A DNA stretch of 64,000 nt from Rubrobacter tropicus. GTDB taxonomy: Bacteria > Actinomycetota > Rubrobacteria > Rubrobacterales > Rubrobacteraceae. Shown one piece after another: positions 5,811 to 27,906 of the stretch (position 1 is the stretch's first letter; the number at the start of each line of letters is the position of its first letter). The notes beneath the pieces were generated by a model. That model made no database searches and was not told the origin of the DNA. It saw only the letters and a list, made by a program, of their open reading frames with translations. The stretch covers positions 2,790,001-2,854,000 of the forward strand of contig NZ_CP045119.1 of NCBI RefSeq assembly GCF_011492945.1. Reading direction: 5' to 3'. Made by a program: the position numbers and the translations under genes.

Positions 5811-6833
5811 ATGAAGATCAGCCTCGTCACGCCGGCCGGGGCGGGGTCGCGCAGCGGCAACAGGGCCACCGCCGAGCGCTGGGCGCGTTTCCTGCGCCAG
5901 GAAGGCCACGAGGTGCTCGTCGAAGTGGCCTGGGGCGGGGAGGTCTCCGACCTGATGATCGCCCTGCACACCCGGCGCAGCCGCCACTCCATAAAGCGCT
6001 ACGCCGCCGCCCACCCCGACCACCCCCTCATCGTCGTCCTCACAGGGACCGACCTCTACCGGGATATCCGGGTCGATGAGGGCGCCCGGGAGTCCCTGGG
6101 TCTCGCCACCCGGGTGGTCGTCCTGCAGGAAGCGGGTCTTGCGGAGCTCGAACCGCACCACCGCGCGAAGGCGCGGGTGATCTACCAGTCGGCCGAGCCC
6201 ATCCGCCCGCAGCCGCGGGCGAAGACCTTCTTCGACGTCTGCGTGGTGGGCAACCTGCGCGCCGAGAAAGACCCCTTCCGCTGCGCCCTGGCCGCCCGGC
6301 TGCTTCCGCCCGCCTCGCGCGTCCGGATCACGCACGTAGGGAAGGCCCACAGCGAGGAGTTCGCGGATCGGGCCGCGGCGCTCGCATCGTCCGAACCGCG
6401 CTACCGATGGCTCGGGGAGGTACCCCGCTGGCGTGTGCGCCGGCTGCTGTCGCGGGTGCACCTGCTGGTGCAGAGCTCCATCATGGAGGGCGGGGCAAAC
6501 GCGGTCGCCGAGGCGCTGGCAGCCGGGGTGCCCGTGATCGCCTCCCGCATAGCAGGCAACGTCGGGATGCTCGGCGAAGACTACCCCGGTTACTACCCGG
6601 TCGGGGATGAGAGTGCCCTGGCCCTGCTGCTGGAACGGACCGAGACAGACGTCGCTTTCCACGAGTTGCTAGAGGCGCGGTGCGCCGCGCGCCGCCCACT
6701 GACCCTGCCCGAACGCGAACGCGGGGCGCTGGGCGGCCTTGTCGAAGAAGTCGCTGGAGGCTTCCCGAACGGCCGGGCGCAGGCCACGGGCGAGGGGGTT
6801 ATACTCGCGCCATGGACGAAAAGACGCGCATAA
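5811..6833 (+). CDS. senB: Selenosugar synthase SenB (glycosyltransferase-like)
   Basis: A 340-residue protein beginning MKISLVTPAGAGSRSGNRAT, with LMIALHTRRSRHSI and VLTGTDLYRDI, the signature stretches of the TIGR04348 glycosyltransferase-like family now known as SenB. The GT-B C-terminal half contains SIMEGGANAVAEALAAGVPV, the usual nucleotide-sugar loop. SenB joins selenophosphate to UDP-N-acetylhexosamine to form a selenosugar. Start 5811 fits the conserved N-terminus; an in-frame ATG at 5781 is an alternative. It diverges from senA across about 120 bases and overlaps the selD start by 22 bases, as in a tight operon. Confidence 0.87.
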   Translation: MKISLVTPAGAGSRSGNRATAERWARFLRQEGHEVLVEVAWGGEVSDLMIALHTRRSRHSIKRYAAAHPDHPLIVVLTGTDLYRDIRVDEGARESLGLATRVVVLQEAGLAELEPHHRAKARVIYQSAEPIRPQPRAKTFFDVCVVGNLRAEKDPFRCALAARLLPPASRVRITHVGKAHSEEFADRAAALASSEPRYRWLGEVPRWRVRRLLSRVHLLVQSSIMEGGANAVAEALAAGVPVIASRIAGNVGMLGEDYPGYYPVGDESALALLLERTETDVAFHELLEARCAARRPLTLPERERGALGGLVEEVAGGFPNGRAQATGEGVILAPWTKRRA

Positions 6834-7852
6834 GGATGACGAAGTACTCGCAGAAGGCCGGTTGAGGCTCTAAATTCGCTCCAGGGGTCCTGGAGCAGGT
6901 GCTTCACTCGTTAACGCCGGGCTCGCCCTCCGCGGACAGCTTCGTGAGCAGCATGGAGACCCGCGACGACGCGGGGTACGTCCCGTTCGGCGGCGGCCTG
7001 CTGCTGCAGTCCGTGGACTTCTTCCCGCCGATCGTGGACGACCCCTACAGGTTCGGCCAGATCGCCGCCGCCAACGCCCTCTCGGACGTCTACGCGATGG
7101 GCGGCGAGCCTTTGACTGCTATGAACCTCGTCGGCTTCCCCGAGAGGCTGGATCTCGGCATCCTGCGCGAGATCCTGGCCGGGGGGCAGTCCAAGATCGA
7201 GGAGTCCGGCGCGAAGCTCTGCGGCGGCCACTCGGTGCAGGACGACGAGCCTAAGTACGGCCTCTCCGTGACGGGCTTCGTGGAGGAGGACCGGGTGGTG
7301 CGCAACACCGGCGCGCGGGCCGGCGACGCTCTCGTGCTGACGAAACCATTAGGCTTTGGCATCCTGACGACGGCCCTGAAACGCGACCTCGTCTCCGAAT
7401 CCGAGATAGAGGACGCCGTCGAGGTGGCGGCGACCCTGAACAAGGGCGGGCGCGCCGCGCTGCGCGAGGTCGAGGTCTCTGCCGCGACCGACGTTACGGG
7501 CTACGGTTTTCTGGGCCACCTCTCCGAAATGCTGGAGGCGTCGGGGCTCGGGGCCGTGGTACGCAGGGGCGACGTGCCCGTCTGGGAGCGATCCGTCTCC
7601 CTCGCCGCGGAGGGGTGCTATCCCGGCGGCCTCAAGAACAACCGGGAGTACCTCGGCGACAAGGTATCCGCGGACGGGGTCGGCCCGGACGACCTGCTGC
7701 CCCTGTACGACCCGCAGACGAGCGGCGGCCTGCTCGTGGCCGTGCCGGAGCAGCAGGCTCCAGCGTTCGTGCGGGCCCTGGAGAAGAACGCCACGCTCGC
7801 CGCGGTGGTCGGCGAGGTCGTCGAAGGCCAGACGATCAGGGTCGTAACGTAA
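6812..7852 (+). CDS. selD: Selenide, water dikinase SelD/SenC, itself a selenocysteine protein (UGA at 6863-6865)
   Basis: Reading through the TGA at 6863-6865 gives a 346-residue SelD of standard length. The N-terminus MDEKTRIRMTKYSQKAGU places selenocysteine (residue 18) exactly where E. coli SelD has catalytic Cys17, and GSK follows with the conserved Lys. Frame is kept without a gap: 33 bases of coding sequence (GSKFAPGVLEQ) join the UGA to the rest. Later marks are ETRDDAG, DFFPPIVDDPYRFGQIAAAN, GGHSVQDDEPKYGL, TDVTGYGFLGH and DPQTSGGLL. The enzyme makes selenophosphate from selenide and ATP. An ATG at 6836 is an alternative start. Automatic annotation would begin at the GTG at 6899 and lose the active site. 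Confidence 0.93.
6878..6896 (+). promoter_or_regulatory. Bacterial SECIS-like hairpin for selD
   Basis: GCTCCAGG and CCTGGAGC form a perfect 8-base stem around the loop GGT. The stem begins 13 bases after the UGA and the loop starts at +21 with two G residues. That matches the known bacterial SECIS rule (short stem downstream of UGA, G in the first loop positions), which recruits SelB and selenocysteinyl-tRNA. Confidence 0.82.
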
Positions 7853-23976: not shown

Positions 23977-25596
23977 CTACCCGCCGCCCCGGCGCGACCA
24001 GTGTCCCTCGTCCACCTCGGTCTCGGCCAGCTCCAGGGTGGCGGCGTGGCCGGTGAAGTCCACGTGCTTGTTGACGGCGACGAGCGCCTGCGGGCAGCAC
24101 AGGAAGACGTTCAGGGCCTCGTCGTAGACGAGCCTGTCGAGTTCCTTGCCGAGGTCGCCGAGCTTTTCCGGGTCGGTCTCGACGACGGAGCGGCCCATGA
24201 GGTCCTCGAACTCGGGCAGCACCGGCCCGGCCCGGAAGGCGCCGCCGGAGTGGAAGTACTCGCGGTGGATGACCGCGGGCGGGTAGCCGGCGGCCAGGTC
24301 GAACCAGGCGTGGACGAGCACGTCGAAGGGCACGGGCAGTTTCTTCTCGACGAGCGCCCGCTGCGCGGCGACCAGGTTTTCGTCCGGGATCGTAACGAGA
24401 TCCACCCCGATCCCCAAAGATTCCCCGAAGCTTTCGGCCAGGTAACGGGCCACCGCCTCGACGTCGCCCGTGGTCGCCAGCCTGAGCGCCCGGTCGGGCG
24501 GCCACCCGGCCTCGGCCAGAAGCCTCTTGCCCTCCTCAGGGTCGTGCGGGTAGGGTTCGAGGTCGTCCGGCGACTCCCAGGAGTAGGGCGGCGCCATCGC
24601 TGCGACCGGGTGGGCGTACCCGAAGAAGACCTCGCGTACCAGGCGGTCGCGGTCCACGGCGAGGTTGAGCGCTTTGCGGACCCGGACGTCGTCCAGGGGC
24701 GCCGAGTTGCGGTTTATGAGGCCGGATACGACGCGCATGGCGTCGATGGTCACGAGGTTCGCGTGATCCGAGTCCCTGACCCTCCCGGCGTCGGCCGGGG
24801 AGACCTCGGTGACTATGTCGACCTCGCCCTCCGCGTCGCAGACGAGGCCGAGCGCCTCGGCGGGCCCGACGTCGTTTCGGAAGACCACCTTTTCCAGGCG
24901 CGGGCCGCGTTCCTTGTTCCAGTGGTCGGGGTTGGCTTCGAGGACCACCCTATCGCTGCGCGGCAGGTTCGTCGGGAGCCAGGTGCAGGTGAAAGGTTCG
25001 GCCTCGATGATGGCGATCTCGGCCTCCCAGGAGGAGAAGCCCTCGACGAGGGTGAACGGTCCCGAGCCCCACGGGCCCGGAGCGTCGATGGCTCACCAGT
25101 GTCCTTCGCCGGTGCCGTACTTACGGTACCCGAACCCCTCCTCCTCCCAGAAGCGGGTGCTAGCTATGTGAAAACCCCTGAACTTCGCGAGCGCCAGCCC
25201 GTCCGGCTCGGGGAACACAAAGCGCGCGGTGTGGTCGTCGGGGCACTCCACGCGCGTGTCCGGGTGGAAGTTCAGGTAAGTCCCGGGCGGGTGCGGGGCC
25301 TTCCACTTCTGCACCTCGTCAAAAGACCTCTTGATGCTGTGGGATGTCAGCGGCTCGCCGTCCTGGAAGCGCACGCCCTCGCGGACCTTGACGATGAGGG
25401 TGCTGCCCTCCCACCCGGAGTCCTCCATGCAGGCCCCGACGATGTTGCCCCTCTCGTCGGTGCGGACCGGCTCCTCCATCGTGTTCCAGGTTATGAACAA
25501 CCAGTTGAGCGGGTGCGGGTCGACGACGTGAACGGTGCCAACCGGCGCACGGACGCCCCCTTCGGCGGCGGGCTGCCGCGTGGCCTGACCTGTCAT
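23977..25596 (-). CDS. Peptide/nickel-type solute-binding protein (SBP_bac_5), candidate selenoprotein with in-frame UGA at 25093-25095
   Basis: Read from the ATG at 25596 to the TAG at 23977, the frame is continuous except for one TGA at codon 168; with read-through it is a 539-residue family-5 solute-binding protein. Before the UGA: VREGVRFQDGEPLTSHSIK and YRKYGTGEGHW. After it: AIDAPGPWGSGPFTLVEGF, then LINRNSAPLDDVRVRKALNL and FFGYAHPVAAMAPP. The block just past the UGA is the normal GTGPF motif of the family, so homology spans the codon without a gap. There is no signal peptide, which is odd for a binding protein. Either the UGA encodes selenocysteine or it is a nonsense mutation of a Trp, Cys or Arg codon. 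A hairpin like that of selD supports the first. Confidence 0.7.
25062..25080 (-). promoter_or_regulatory. Candidate bacterial SECIS hairpin in the binding-protein gene
   Basis: On the minus strand CCGGGCCC (+13 to +20 from the UGA) pairs with GGGCTCGG (+24 to +31), with one G-U pair, around the loop GTG (+21 to +23). Spacer, stem length, loop length and a G in the first loop position are identical in geometry to the selD element. GC-rich DNA forms hairpins easily, so this is supportive rather than proof. Confidence 0.5.
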
Positions 25597-25828: not shown

Positions 25829-26332
25829 ATGCGCGGGATCGGCTGGAAACCGCTCGAAGACCCCGCAGGCGCCTGGCCGAGCGGGCTCGCCCTCGGCCCC
25901 CACGGCTGGCTCCTGGACACAAGCTTCGTCCTGTCCGGCGCGCTGCTTTGCGTGTTCGCCCTGGGCCTTCACCGGGGCATGGGCCGGGGCTCGAAGTTAG
26001 GCCCGGCCCTGCTCCTCCTCGCCGGCGCGGCGATGGCGCTGCTGGCCTTCGAGACCGACCCCATCCGGCGCGCGGGACCGAGGACCTGGCCAGGCTTCGT
26101 CCACGACGCCGCCTTCGTCGTCTTCGCGCTGGCCCTGCTGCTCTCGCTCCTCTTTCTCTGGCGCCGCATGCAAGGGGGTGCGCGCTGGCGCGGCCACGCC
26201 CGGTTCACCCTCGTAACCGCCCTCGTCTGCGCGGCGTGCCTCGTCCTTCCTGGCGTCGCCTACTACGTCTTTCTCGCCGCGGCGCTCCTGTGGATAGAGC
26301 TCACGGCCTTTCGCCTCCTGCGCCTCTCCTAA
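25829..26332 (+). CDS. DUF998-like membrane protein, start unclear
   Basis: At least 167 residues with five hydrophobic helices. The coding frame continues upstream of the ATG at 25829 to about 25740 (LAGIFGPAIFAAALLTLTAL, a clear extra helix) but no ATG, GTG or TTG is found there, so the 5' end is lost, frameshifted or begins at a rare codon. PIRRAGPRTWPGFVHDAAF in the middle resembles the DUF998 loop. Its stop codon overlaps the convergent larA-like stop by four bases. Confidence 0.6.
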   Translation: MRGIGWKPLEDPAGAWPSGLALGPHGWLLDTSFVLSGALLCVFALGLHRGMGRGSKLGPALLLLAGAAMALLAFETDPIRRAGPRTWPGFVHDAAFVVFALALLLSLLFLWRRMQGGARWRGHARFTLVTALVCAACLVLPGVAYYVFLAAALLWIELTAFRLLRLS

Positions 26333-27906
26333 CTCACCTCGACCATAAACAGCGGCGGGATGTGCATGTACGTGATGCTAGGGCTCGCGCCGACGATGGG
26401 CTCGGCGACCTGGAGGGCTTCGGCCACGGTGTCGGCGCGTTTGTAGCCCATCCTGGACGTCGTGTGGGGATCGCCGCCGACGAAGACGACGCCGCCCAGG
26501 TGGTCGAGGGCGTGGGCGCCCCACTGCCAGGTGGTGAACGGGTGGAAGCCGTGGTAGGCGTGGGAGGACCGGTAGAGGGTCCGGTACCACGGGTCCAGGG
26601 CGTACTTGTCCTGGAACCTTCTCTCGCCCTCGTGCGGGTCGGTGGTCTCGGCGATCACCTCGTCGAAGTACGGCTTGTAGCTCGGGTGGTAGGCGTCGTC
26701 CCACTCGTTCGGGACGGGGTGGGTGGCTATTATGACGCCGCCCTCGCGAACCAGCGGCCTGCCCTTGTAGAGGTTGAAGAGGTAGCCGAGGACGTAGTTG
26801 TGGACCAGTATCGGGTTCATGATCGAGTTCACGTTGTACGGCCCGACGTACGGCACGCCGAGGAGTAGCACGTCGGCCTGGCCCTCCACGCGAACGAGCT
26901 GCTGGCGGTATATGTGCTCAAGGGTCTCGGCGTGTACCGGTTCGGTGGCGCCGGCCTGGACGCTCGTCATACGGTGCGGGGCGACTATCGACTGGAAGAC
27001 CTTGCGCGCGGCCTTCCGGGGCATGAACTGCGTCGCCTTGTGATTGGCGAGGAAGTTAGCCTTGGTGATCGCGTTCCACTCGTGCTCGGGCTTCGCCATG
27101 AAGTCGAACATGGAGGGGAACGCGGCGTTGTTGAGGGTCGTCTCGATGTGGAAGACCTTTACGGCGTTGTCCAGGATCTCGCCCATCCTGTTTATGGAGC
27201 CGTGCATAGCCGAGTTCGGCGGGTCCATCAGCGAACGGGTGTTCCTGAGCGTCTCGGCGTTGTGGTGGTGGCGGATCGAAGAGTAGGGCGAGATCCCCGT
27301 GTGGACCGACTTGTGCCCCCCGTTCATCGCTACCAGGTTGATGTTCACGTACACGACGAGGTCGCTCTCGGCGGCCCGGCGGCTGATGCGCACCTCCTCC
27401 CCCCGCTCGGTGTGCCCGATCACCGTGTTCCCCTCTTCGTCCTCGGCGTCGTAGTTGTACAGCCGGTCGGGATAGAAGGACGACATGATGTCTTTCCCCA
27501 ACGCCCACCGGAGCTCCTTCTCCGTCATGCGCCGGTGCAGCCCGAGGGCGGCGATGAGGTGGATGTCATCCACACCTTTTGCGTAAGCCTTCTCCAGGAC
27601 CTTCTCAATTACGAGCTGCCGGTTGTCCGGCGGCTTCATCGGCGGCAGCGGGCAGGAGACGTCGTCGAAGACGATCGTCAACTTCATGCCCGGATGTAAA
27701 AGCTCGTGCAGAGGCTCCATCCCCATCGGCTCGAGCAGCGCCCGCTCGATGGCGACCTTCGGGTCCGCGAGCGGCTCGACCGGACCTGGAGGGTATATAA
27801 CGCGCGTCCCCTCGGGCAGCTTCTCGTAGTGAAAACCGTCCCCCGCGTTGAACATCATCGGAGGGCTGGACTTTTCGAGGGTGGTGACGAATCCGGGTCG
27901 GGTCAT
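26329..27906 (-). CDS. LarA-like protein (DUF2088, lactate racemase N-terminal fold)
   Basis: A 525-residue protein. LTIVFDDVSCPLPPMKPPDN matches the LarA Asp-rich opening (usually DxTRPxP), HLIAALGLHRRMTEKELRWA the conserved GxHR-like helix, and MNGGHKSVHTGISPYSSIRH the His-containing cofactor loop. LarA enzymes use a nickel-pincer nucleotide to move hydride on 2-hydroxy acids. No larB, larC or larE is nearby, so the cofactor would have to come from elsewhere. Substrate unknown. ATG 27906 follows a GGGAG site. The next gene on this strand is an MDR dehydrogenase about 200 bases upstream, separated by repeats. Confidence 0.82.
   Translation of the reverse strand: MTRPGFVTTLEKSSPPMMFNAGDGFHYEKLPEGTRVIYPPGPVEPLADPKVAIERALLEPMGMEPLHELLHPGMKLTIVFDDVSCPLPPMKPPDNRQLVIEKVLEKAYAKGVDDIHLIAALGLHRRMTEKELRWALGKDIMSSFYPDRLYNYDAEDEEGNTVIGHTERGEEVRISRRAAESDLVVYVNINLVAMNGGHKSVHTGISPYSSIRHHHNAETLRNTRSLMDPPNSAMHGSINRMGEILDNAVKVFHIETTLNNAAFPSMFDFMAKPEHEWNAITKANFLANHKATQFMPRKAARKVFQSIVAPHRMTSVQAGATEPVHAETLEHIYRQQLVRVEGQADVLLLGVPYVGPYNVNSIMNPILVHNYVLGYLFNLYKGRPLVREGGVIIATHPVPNEWDDAYHPSYKPYFDEVIAETTDPHEGERRFQDKYALDPWYRTLYRSSHAYHGFHPFTTWQWGAHALDHLGGVVFVGGDPHTTSRMGYKRADTVAEALQVAEPIVGASPSITYMHIPPLFMVEVS

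Follow-up and report, generated by a model that had tools for sequence, protein, structure and literature searches.

A candidate selenoprotein family among family-5 solute-binding proteins, with a conserved in-frame stop codon in Rubrobacter tropicus and its relatives

A 64-kb stretch of the Rubrobacter tropicus genome (the window) carries a gene for a family-5 solute-binding protein (SBP) whose reading frame is interrupted by one UGA triplet. This raises the question of whether the codon ends translation or is read as selenocysteine (Sec). Sequence comparison indicated that codon 168 is very probably read as Sec and that the gene encodes one selenoprotein of 539 residues. The first-pass annotation had proposed a candidate new selenoprotein here, and the proposal was supported by the universal stop codon at the site, the change from UGA to UAG together with the anticodon of tRNA-Sec, and the linkage of the gene to the sel genes.

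The gene was located on the minus strand (23977..25596), from an ATG at 25596 to a TAG stop at 23979-23977, and consisted of 539 codons plus the stop. The only in-frame TGA was codon 168 (25093..25095, minus strand, read 25095-25093), in the context GTGEGHW-U-AIDAPGPWG. The plus strand of 23977-25596 is also open; it was rejected as the coding strand. The protein matched Pfam family PF00496 (SBP_bac_5) over residues 64-432 with E=2.8e-48 and 165.4 bits against a gathering score of 32.4, and the match extended across both sides of the UGA. The earlier description of a family-5 SBP open except for the UGA at codon 168 had been given without a strand; the coordinates and the PF00496 match confirmed it. 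In five comparisons, the ratio of nonsynonymous to synonymous polymorphism (pN/pS) was 0.23-0.57 after the UGA and 0.18-0.38 before it, and purifying selection is acting on the downstream frame as on the upstream frame. The putative assignment of a Sec-containing family-5 SBP of 539 residues, with Sec at 168, was based on the frame, the PF00496 match and this downstream selection. A real stop at codon 168 would mean two genes, a pseudogene, a sequencing error, or a 167-residue protein with a separate downstream open reading frame. Such a stop would be the standard reading of UGA, but the frame behind it is conserved and under selection.

Homologs were searched for in 84,980 species-representative genomes, and the counts refer to loci covering the codon-168 site. 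A stop codon was found at the site in all 62 covered homologs (57 UGA, 5 UAG, 0 sense codons), which reached down to about 36–40% identity; in the Rubrobacteraceae the count was 23 of 23. The phyla with a stop at the site were Actinomycetota, Dormibacteraeota, and Pseudomonadota, and the gene was present in Rubrobacter, Solirubrobacterales, Pseudonocardia, Geodermatophilaceae, Dormibacteraeota, Methylobacterium, Methylorubrum, Burkholderiales, and Rhodospirillales. The position of the stop showed no drift among homologs, and UAA never occurred there; such codon conservation greatly exceeds what chance would give. A resequenced TGG or CGA had been named as a possible outcome at this codon; its presence in 62 further loci excluded a sequencing error. 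A few copies in metagenome-assembled genomes (MAGs) carried an extra stop or a frameshift, and the annotation of a Methylobacterium plasmid has no protein at the gene; both favor a real stop, yet the codon is the same across several phyla.

Close homologs with Cys at the site were sought with the pattern EGHWC[AVI]ID in the 84,980 genomes, and Cys was found in no confirmed locus. Whole-genome samples from the classes of a Methylobacterium and a Geodermatophilus genome yielded nothing beyond paralogs, copies already known and the Cys homolog L187. The expectation of Cys in most homologs and UGA in some did not hold: the Sec codon was universal in the family, and Cys occurred only in remote homologs. 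As a separate observation, codon 430 of L077 (codon 427 of L017), which encodes Trp in relatives, is a further in-frame TGA; it may be a sequencing error, a decayed copy or a second recoding.

Readthrough or recoding could also place a standard residue, such as Trp or Arg, at the UGA. UGA-to-Trp codes occur in other bacteria, and Trp adjoins the site (HW-U). However, neither Trp nor Arg was seen at the site in any homolog, tRNA-Sec and SelB are present, the loop contains Cys in the remote homologs, and UAG occurs in a lineage whose tRNA-Sec has the anticodon CUA. A standard residue at codon 168 is thus extremely improbable.

All five UAG homologs belonged to Geodermatophilaceae (Geodermatophilus and Modestobacter), and in the tree the UAG rows clustered together beside their UGA relatives. 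In four of the five UAG loci, a tRNA-Sec gene with the anticodon CUA was located upstream of the SBP gene. These tRNAs matched the Rfam tRNA-Sec model at 65–67 bits and were labeled tRNA-Pyl by ARAGORN. No tRNA-Sec was seen in the fifth UAG locus (L100, 4.4 kb). L094, a Geodermatophilaceae relative with UGA, had a tRNA-Sec with UCA at the same place. Sec decoding by UAG in Geodermatophilaceae is already described in the literature (PMC5330540). The proteins named in that source (formate dehydrogenase, a UGSC-motif protein and AhpC) use the same UAG/tRNA-Sec CUA code as the relatives found here, and the SBP family is not among them (PMC5330540). A real stop at codon 168 would not account for UAG being confined to the lineage whose tRNA-Sec reads UAG, and this explanation was considered highly improbable.

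The R. tropicus genome encodes SelB, tRNA-Sec, and SelD. The tRNA-Sec (UCA) adjoins selB about 245 kb from the SBP gene, and selD lies in the window about 17 kb from it (6830..7738, plus strand, the stretch matched by tblastn). This selD has its own in-frame UGA at 6863-6865 (KYSQKAG-U-GSKFAPG), which bears out the earlier statement that the window by itself makes UGA decoding likely in this organism. Outside Rubrobacter, selA, selB and/or selD were located within 8 kb of the SBP gene in 30 of 42 loci. The gene order was SBP-selB in Methylobacterium and SBP-selB-tRNASec-selA in Methylibium and Rhizobacter. In Geodermatophilaceae and Pseudonocardia, the order was selD (divergent), SBP, selA, selB; in Geodermatophilaceae a tRNA-Sec gene precedes the SBP gene. 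Methylobacterium and Geodermatophilus genomes also encode a molybdopterin enzyme whose gene contains an in-frame UGA or UAG; it is probably a formate dehydrogenase of the Sec type. No such enzyme was found in two Methylorubrum genomes and a Methylibium MAG. Methylobacterium pseudosasicola had two copies of the SBP gene (L109, 8001-9485; L123, 8001-9509), each beside its own selB, and the two SelB proteins were about 63% identical.

In six remote Pseudomonadota homologs (L187 and L194-L198), Cys was invariant within the same loop. The values for this group were 24% identity, hhalign probability 100 and profile-profile E=1.5e-51, and the loop motifs were C-PNLxEPGPxGxGP in the Cys group and U-xIDxPGPWGxGP in the Sec family. 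The Cys proteins resemble the window protein in remote homology and in this loop; they differ in being exported in the cases read, in having Cys for Sec, and in showing no link to sel genes. Among the four Cys-homolog neighborhoods read, a histidine-kinase-type gene adjoined three, and two chemoreceptor genes adjoined one. A plasmid search for relatives of the remote Cys homolog found none. At L201-L204, family-5 binding proteins that carry an invariant Cys are encoded beside chemoreceptors or histidine kinases and are likely sensory binding proteins.

A candidate bacterial selenocysteine insertion sequence (SECIS) hairpin, CCGGGCCC-GTG-GGGCTCGG, was located at 25062..25080 (minus strand), 12 nt after the UGA. 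It had a 12-nt spacer, a stem of 8 pairs (one G-U) and a 3-nt loop (GTG), in agreement with the selD geometry claimed for it. The strict geometry followed two of the 1,021 TGA triplets on both strands of the window, namely codon 168 and the selD UGA at 6863 (plus strand). It occurred at about 0.025% of all positions, so that chance alone would place about 0.25 cases after 1,021 TGAs. The loops of the homologs were mostly GTG or GTGGG. Synonymous diversity around the hairpin was the lowest of the gene in two of three groups (Rubrobacter and Methylobacterium/Burkholderiales), and not in the third. In the Methylobacterium/Burkholderiales stem, the uncommon codons GGT and GGG were fixed in 24 of 24 sequences and ACT in 22 of 24.

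Several observations weigh against the Sec reading or against the function proposed below. The stability of the hairpin compared with synonymous-codon shuffles gave a mean z of -0.49 over 28 homologs, which was not significant, and the peptide GPGPWG in a GC-rich code tends to fold by itself; the hairpin is therefore consistent with Sec insertion but is no proof of it. On the question of chance hairpins, the rarity of the exact geometry in the window stood, while the folding energy was not above that of synonymous shuffles. By itself the hairpin is weak evidence, and the universal stop, the switch between UGA and UAG with the anticodon, and the sel linkage are decisive. No sel genes were found within the flanks of the SBP gene in the Rubrobacter loci. 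SelB was not detected in eight MAGs with the gene. Seven of these were small or fragmentary or had no stated completeness, and the eighth was rated 98% complete in 470 contigs. In the remote homologs the Cys was offset by one residue from the Sec, and gap placement was ambiguous when the Sec column was masked; on sequence grounds it is accordingly likely, and not certain, that Cys and Sec occupy the same alignment column. Signal-peptide-like N-termini were seen by eye in L106, L124, L114, and L130. The function is also much less certain than the Sec reading; ligand and function were deduced from neighborhood and fold.

SelB and tRNA-Sec with the anticodon UCA would decode the UGA at codon 168 as Sec, and the stem-loop 12 nt downstream may aid this decoding. 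The predicted structure was confident (pLDDT 90.4, pTM 0.90) and had the family-5 SBP fold in Foldseek, with 5u4o (TMq 0.75) and E. coli NikA 1uiv (TMq 0.71) as matches. The Sec168 loop lay in a stretch without counterpart in NikA, directly before the GTGPW motif. No signal peptide was found in the window protein, even when the frame was extended from the ATG back to the next upstream stop, and none was seen in most members examined, whose N-termini were read by eye. No NikB/C-like permease was found near the SBP gene at any locus.

Family-5 SBPs usually serve ATP-binding cassette (ABC) importers, and the selenoprotein could be the binding subunit of such an importer. The substrate would then be peptides, nickel or a selenium compound, and the permease genes would lie elsewhere in the genome. 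This is favored by the fold, the profile similarity to NikA/DppA, and the four signal-peptide-like N-termini. It was considered unlikely, given the window protein and most relatives examined without a signal peptide, the loci without a nearby permease, and the chemoreceptors and kinases beside the Cys homologs. A soluble sensor or carrier that binds a ligand, and that in the window protein's case is probably cytosolic, appeared likelier than an importer subunit because of the few signal peptides, the missing nearby permease and the sensory surroundings of the Cys relatives. In such a protein Sec168, whose loop directly precedes the conserved GxGPF motif, would act as a soft ligand toward a metal, a thiol or a selenium compound, or as a redox switch for that bound partner; the chances of this reading as a whole are perhaps even. 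A more specific role is conceivable and quite improbable: the protein would be Sec-obligate and linked to the sel operon, and inside the cell it would sense or carry selenium itself or a metal ligand bound via selenium, in association with the Sec machinery. In Methylorubrum, whose two genomes gave no molybdopterin enzyme with an in-frame UGA, it would perhaps be among the few proteins keeping the Sec code in use.

An HbpS-like protein (PF03928; 23561..23962, minus strand) was encoded directly downstream of the SBP gene, as in most Rubrobacter loci. Upstream on the same strand was a gene for an NPN (nickel-pincer)-dependent hydroxyacid isomerase of the LarAH14/15/16 family (26329..27906, minus strand), which occurred near the SBP gene in several Rubrobacter loci only. 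In seven other loci (L106, at 7247-7828, and L105, L111, L114, L124, L128, and L130), a TlpA/ResA-like thioredoxin-fold gene was located directly upstream of the SBP gene; its product is a possible redox partner of the Sec-containing SBP.

Comparison with known systems showed that the window protein shared PF00496, the fold and the GxGPF-type motif with the family-5 (cluster C) SBPs NikA and DppA. It differed from them in scoring far below both equivalog cut-offs (63 bits for NikA, TIGR02294, against a cut-off of 393) and in the usual lack of a signal peptide and of a nearby permease in its family. SaoB and SaoX (NF040727, NF040735) are also predicted Sec-containing substrate-binding proteins (PMC13188914). 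The window protein had no match to NF040727 or NF040735 (E<=0.01), and the Sec motifs differed, with CUxxT and UxP in SaoB/SaoX and HWUxID in the family described here.

Within a partial coverage of the literature, a 2026 inventory that lists 119 families of prokaryotic selenoproteins had no entry for the SBP family, and no NCBIfam model reached its cut-off for the family. In the Methylobacterium radiotolerans plasmid NZ_CP090580.1, the gene (L192, 278133-279614) had no annotated protein and was located between a MarR regulator and selB; since the gene table of this plasmid is known to be incomplete, the gap is only a hint. The authors of deep-Sep name the reliance on close Cys homologs as a limit of such searches (PMC12013277). 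The family has plausibly been overlooked so far because searches rely on such homologs and annotation leaves a gap at the gene.

If the Sec reading is true, it would add a selenoprotein family with the Sec codon in every close member found, from a fold class, the family-5 SBPs, that the 2026 inventory does not contain. The matched switch from UGA/UCA to UAG/CUA at one locus would amount to a clean natural experiment in Sec recoding. The linkage to selA, selB, and selD in Methylobacterium, Burkholderiales, Geodermatophilaceae, and Pseudonocardia would give a handle on why the Sec code is retained.
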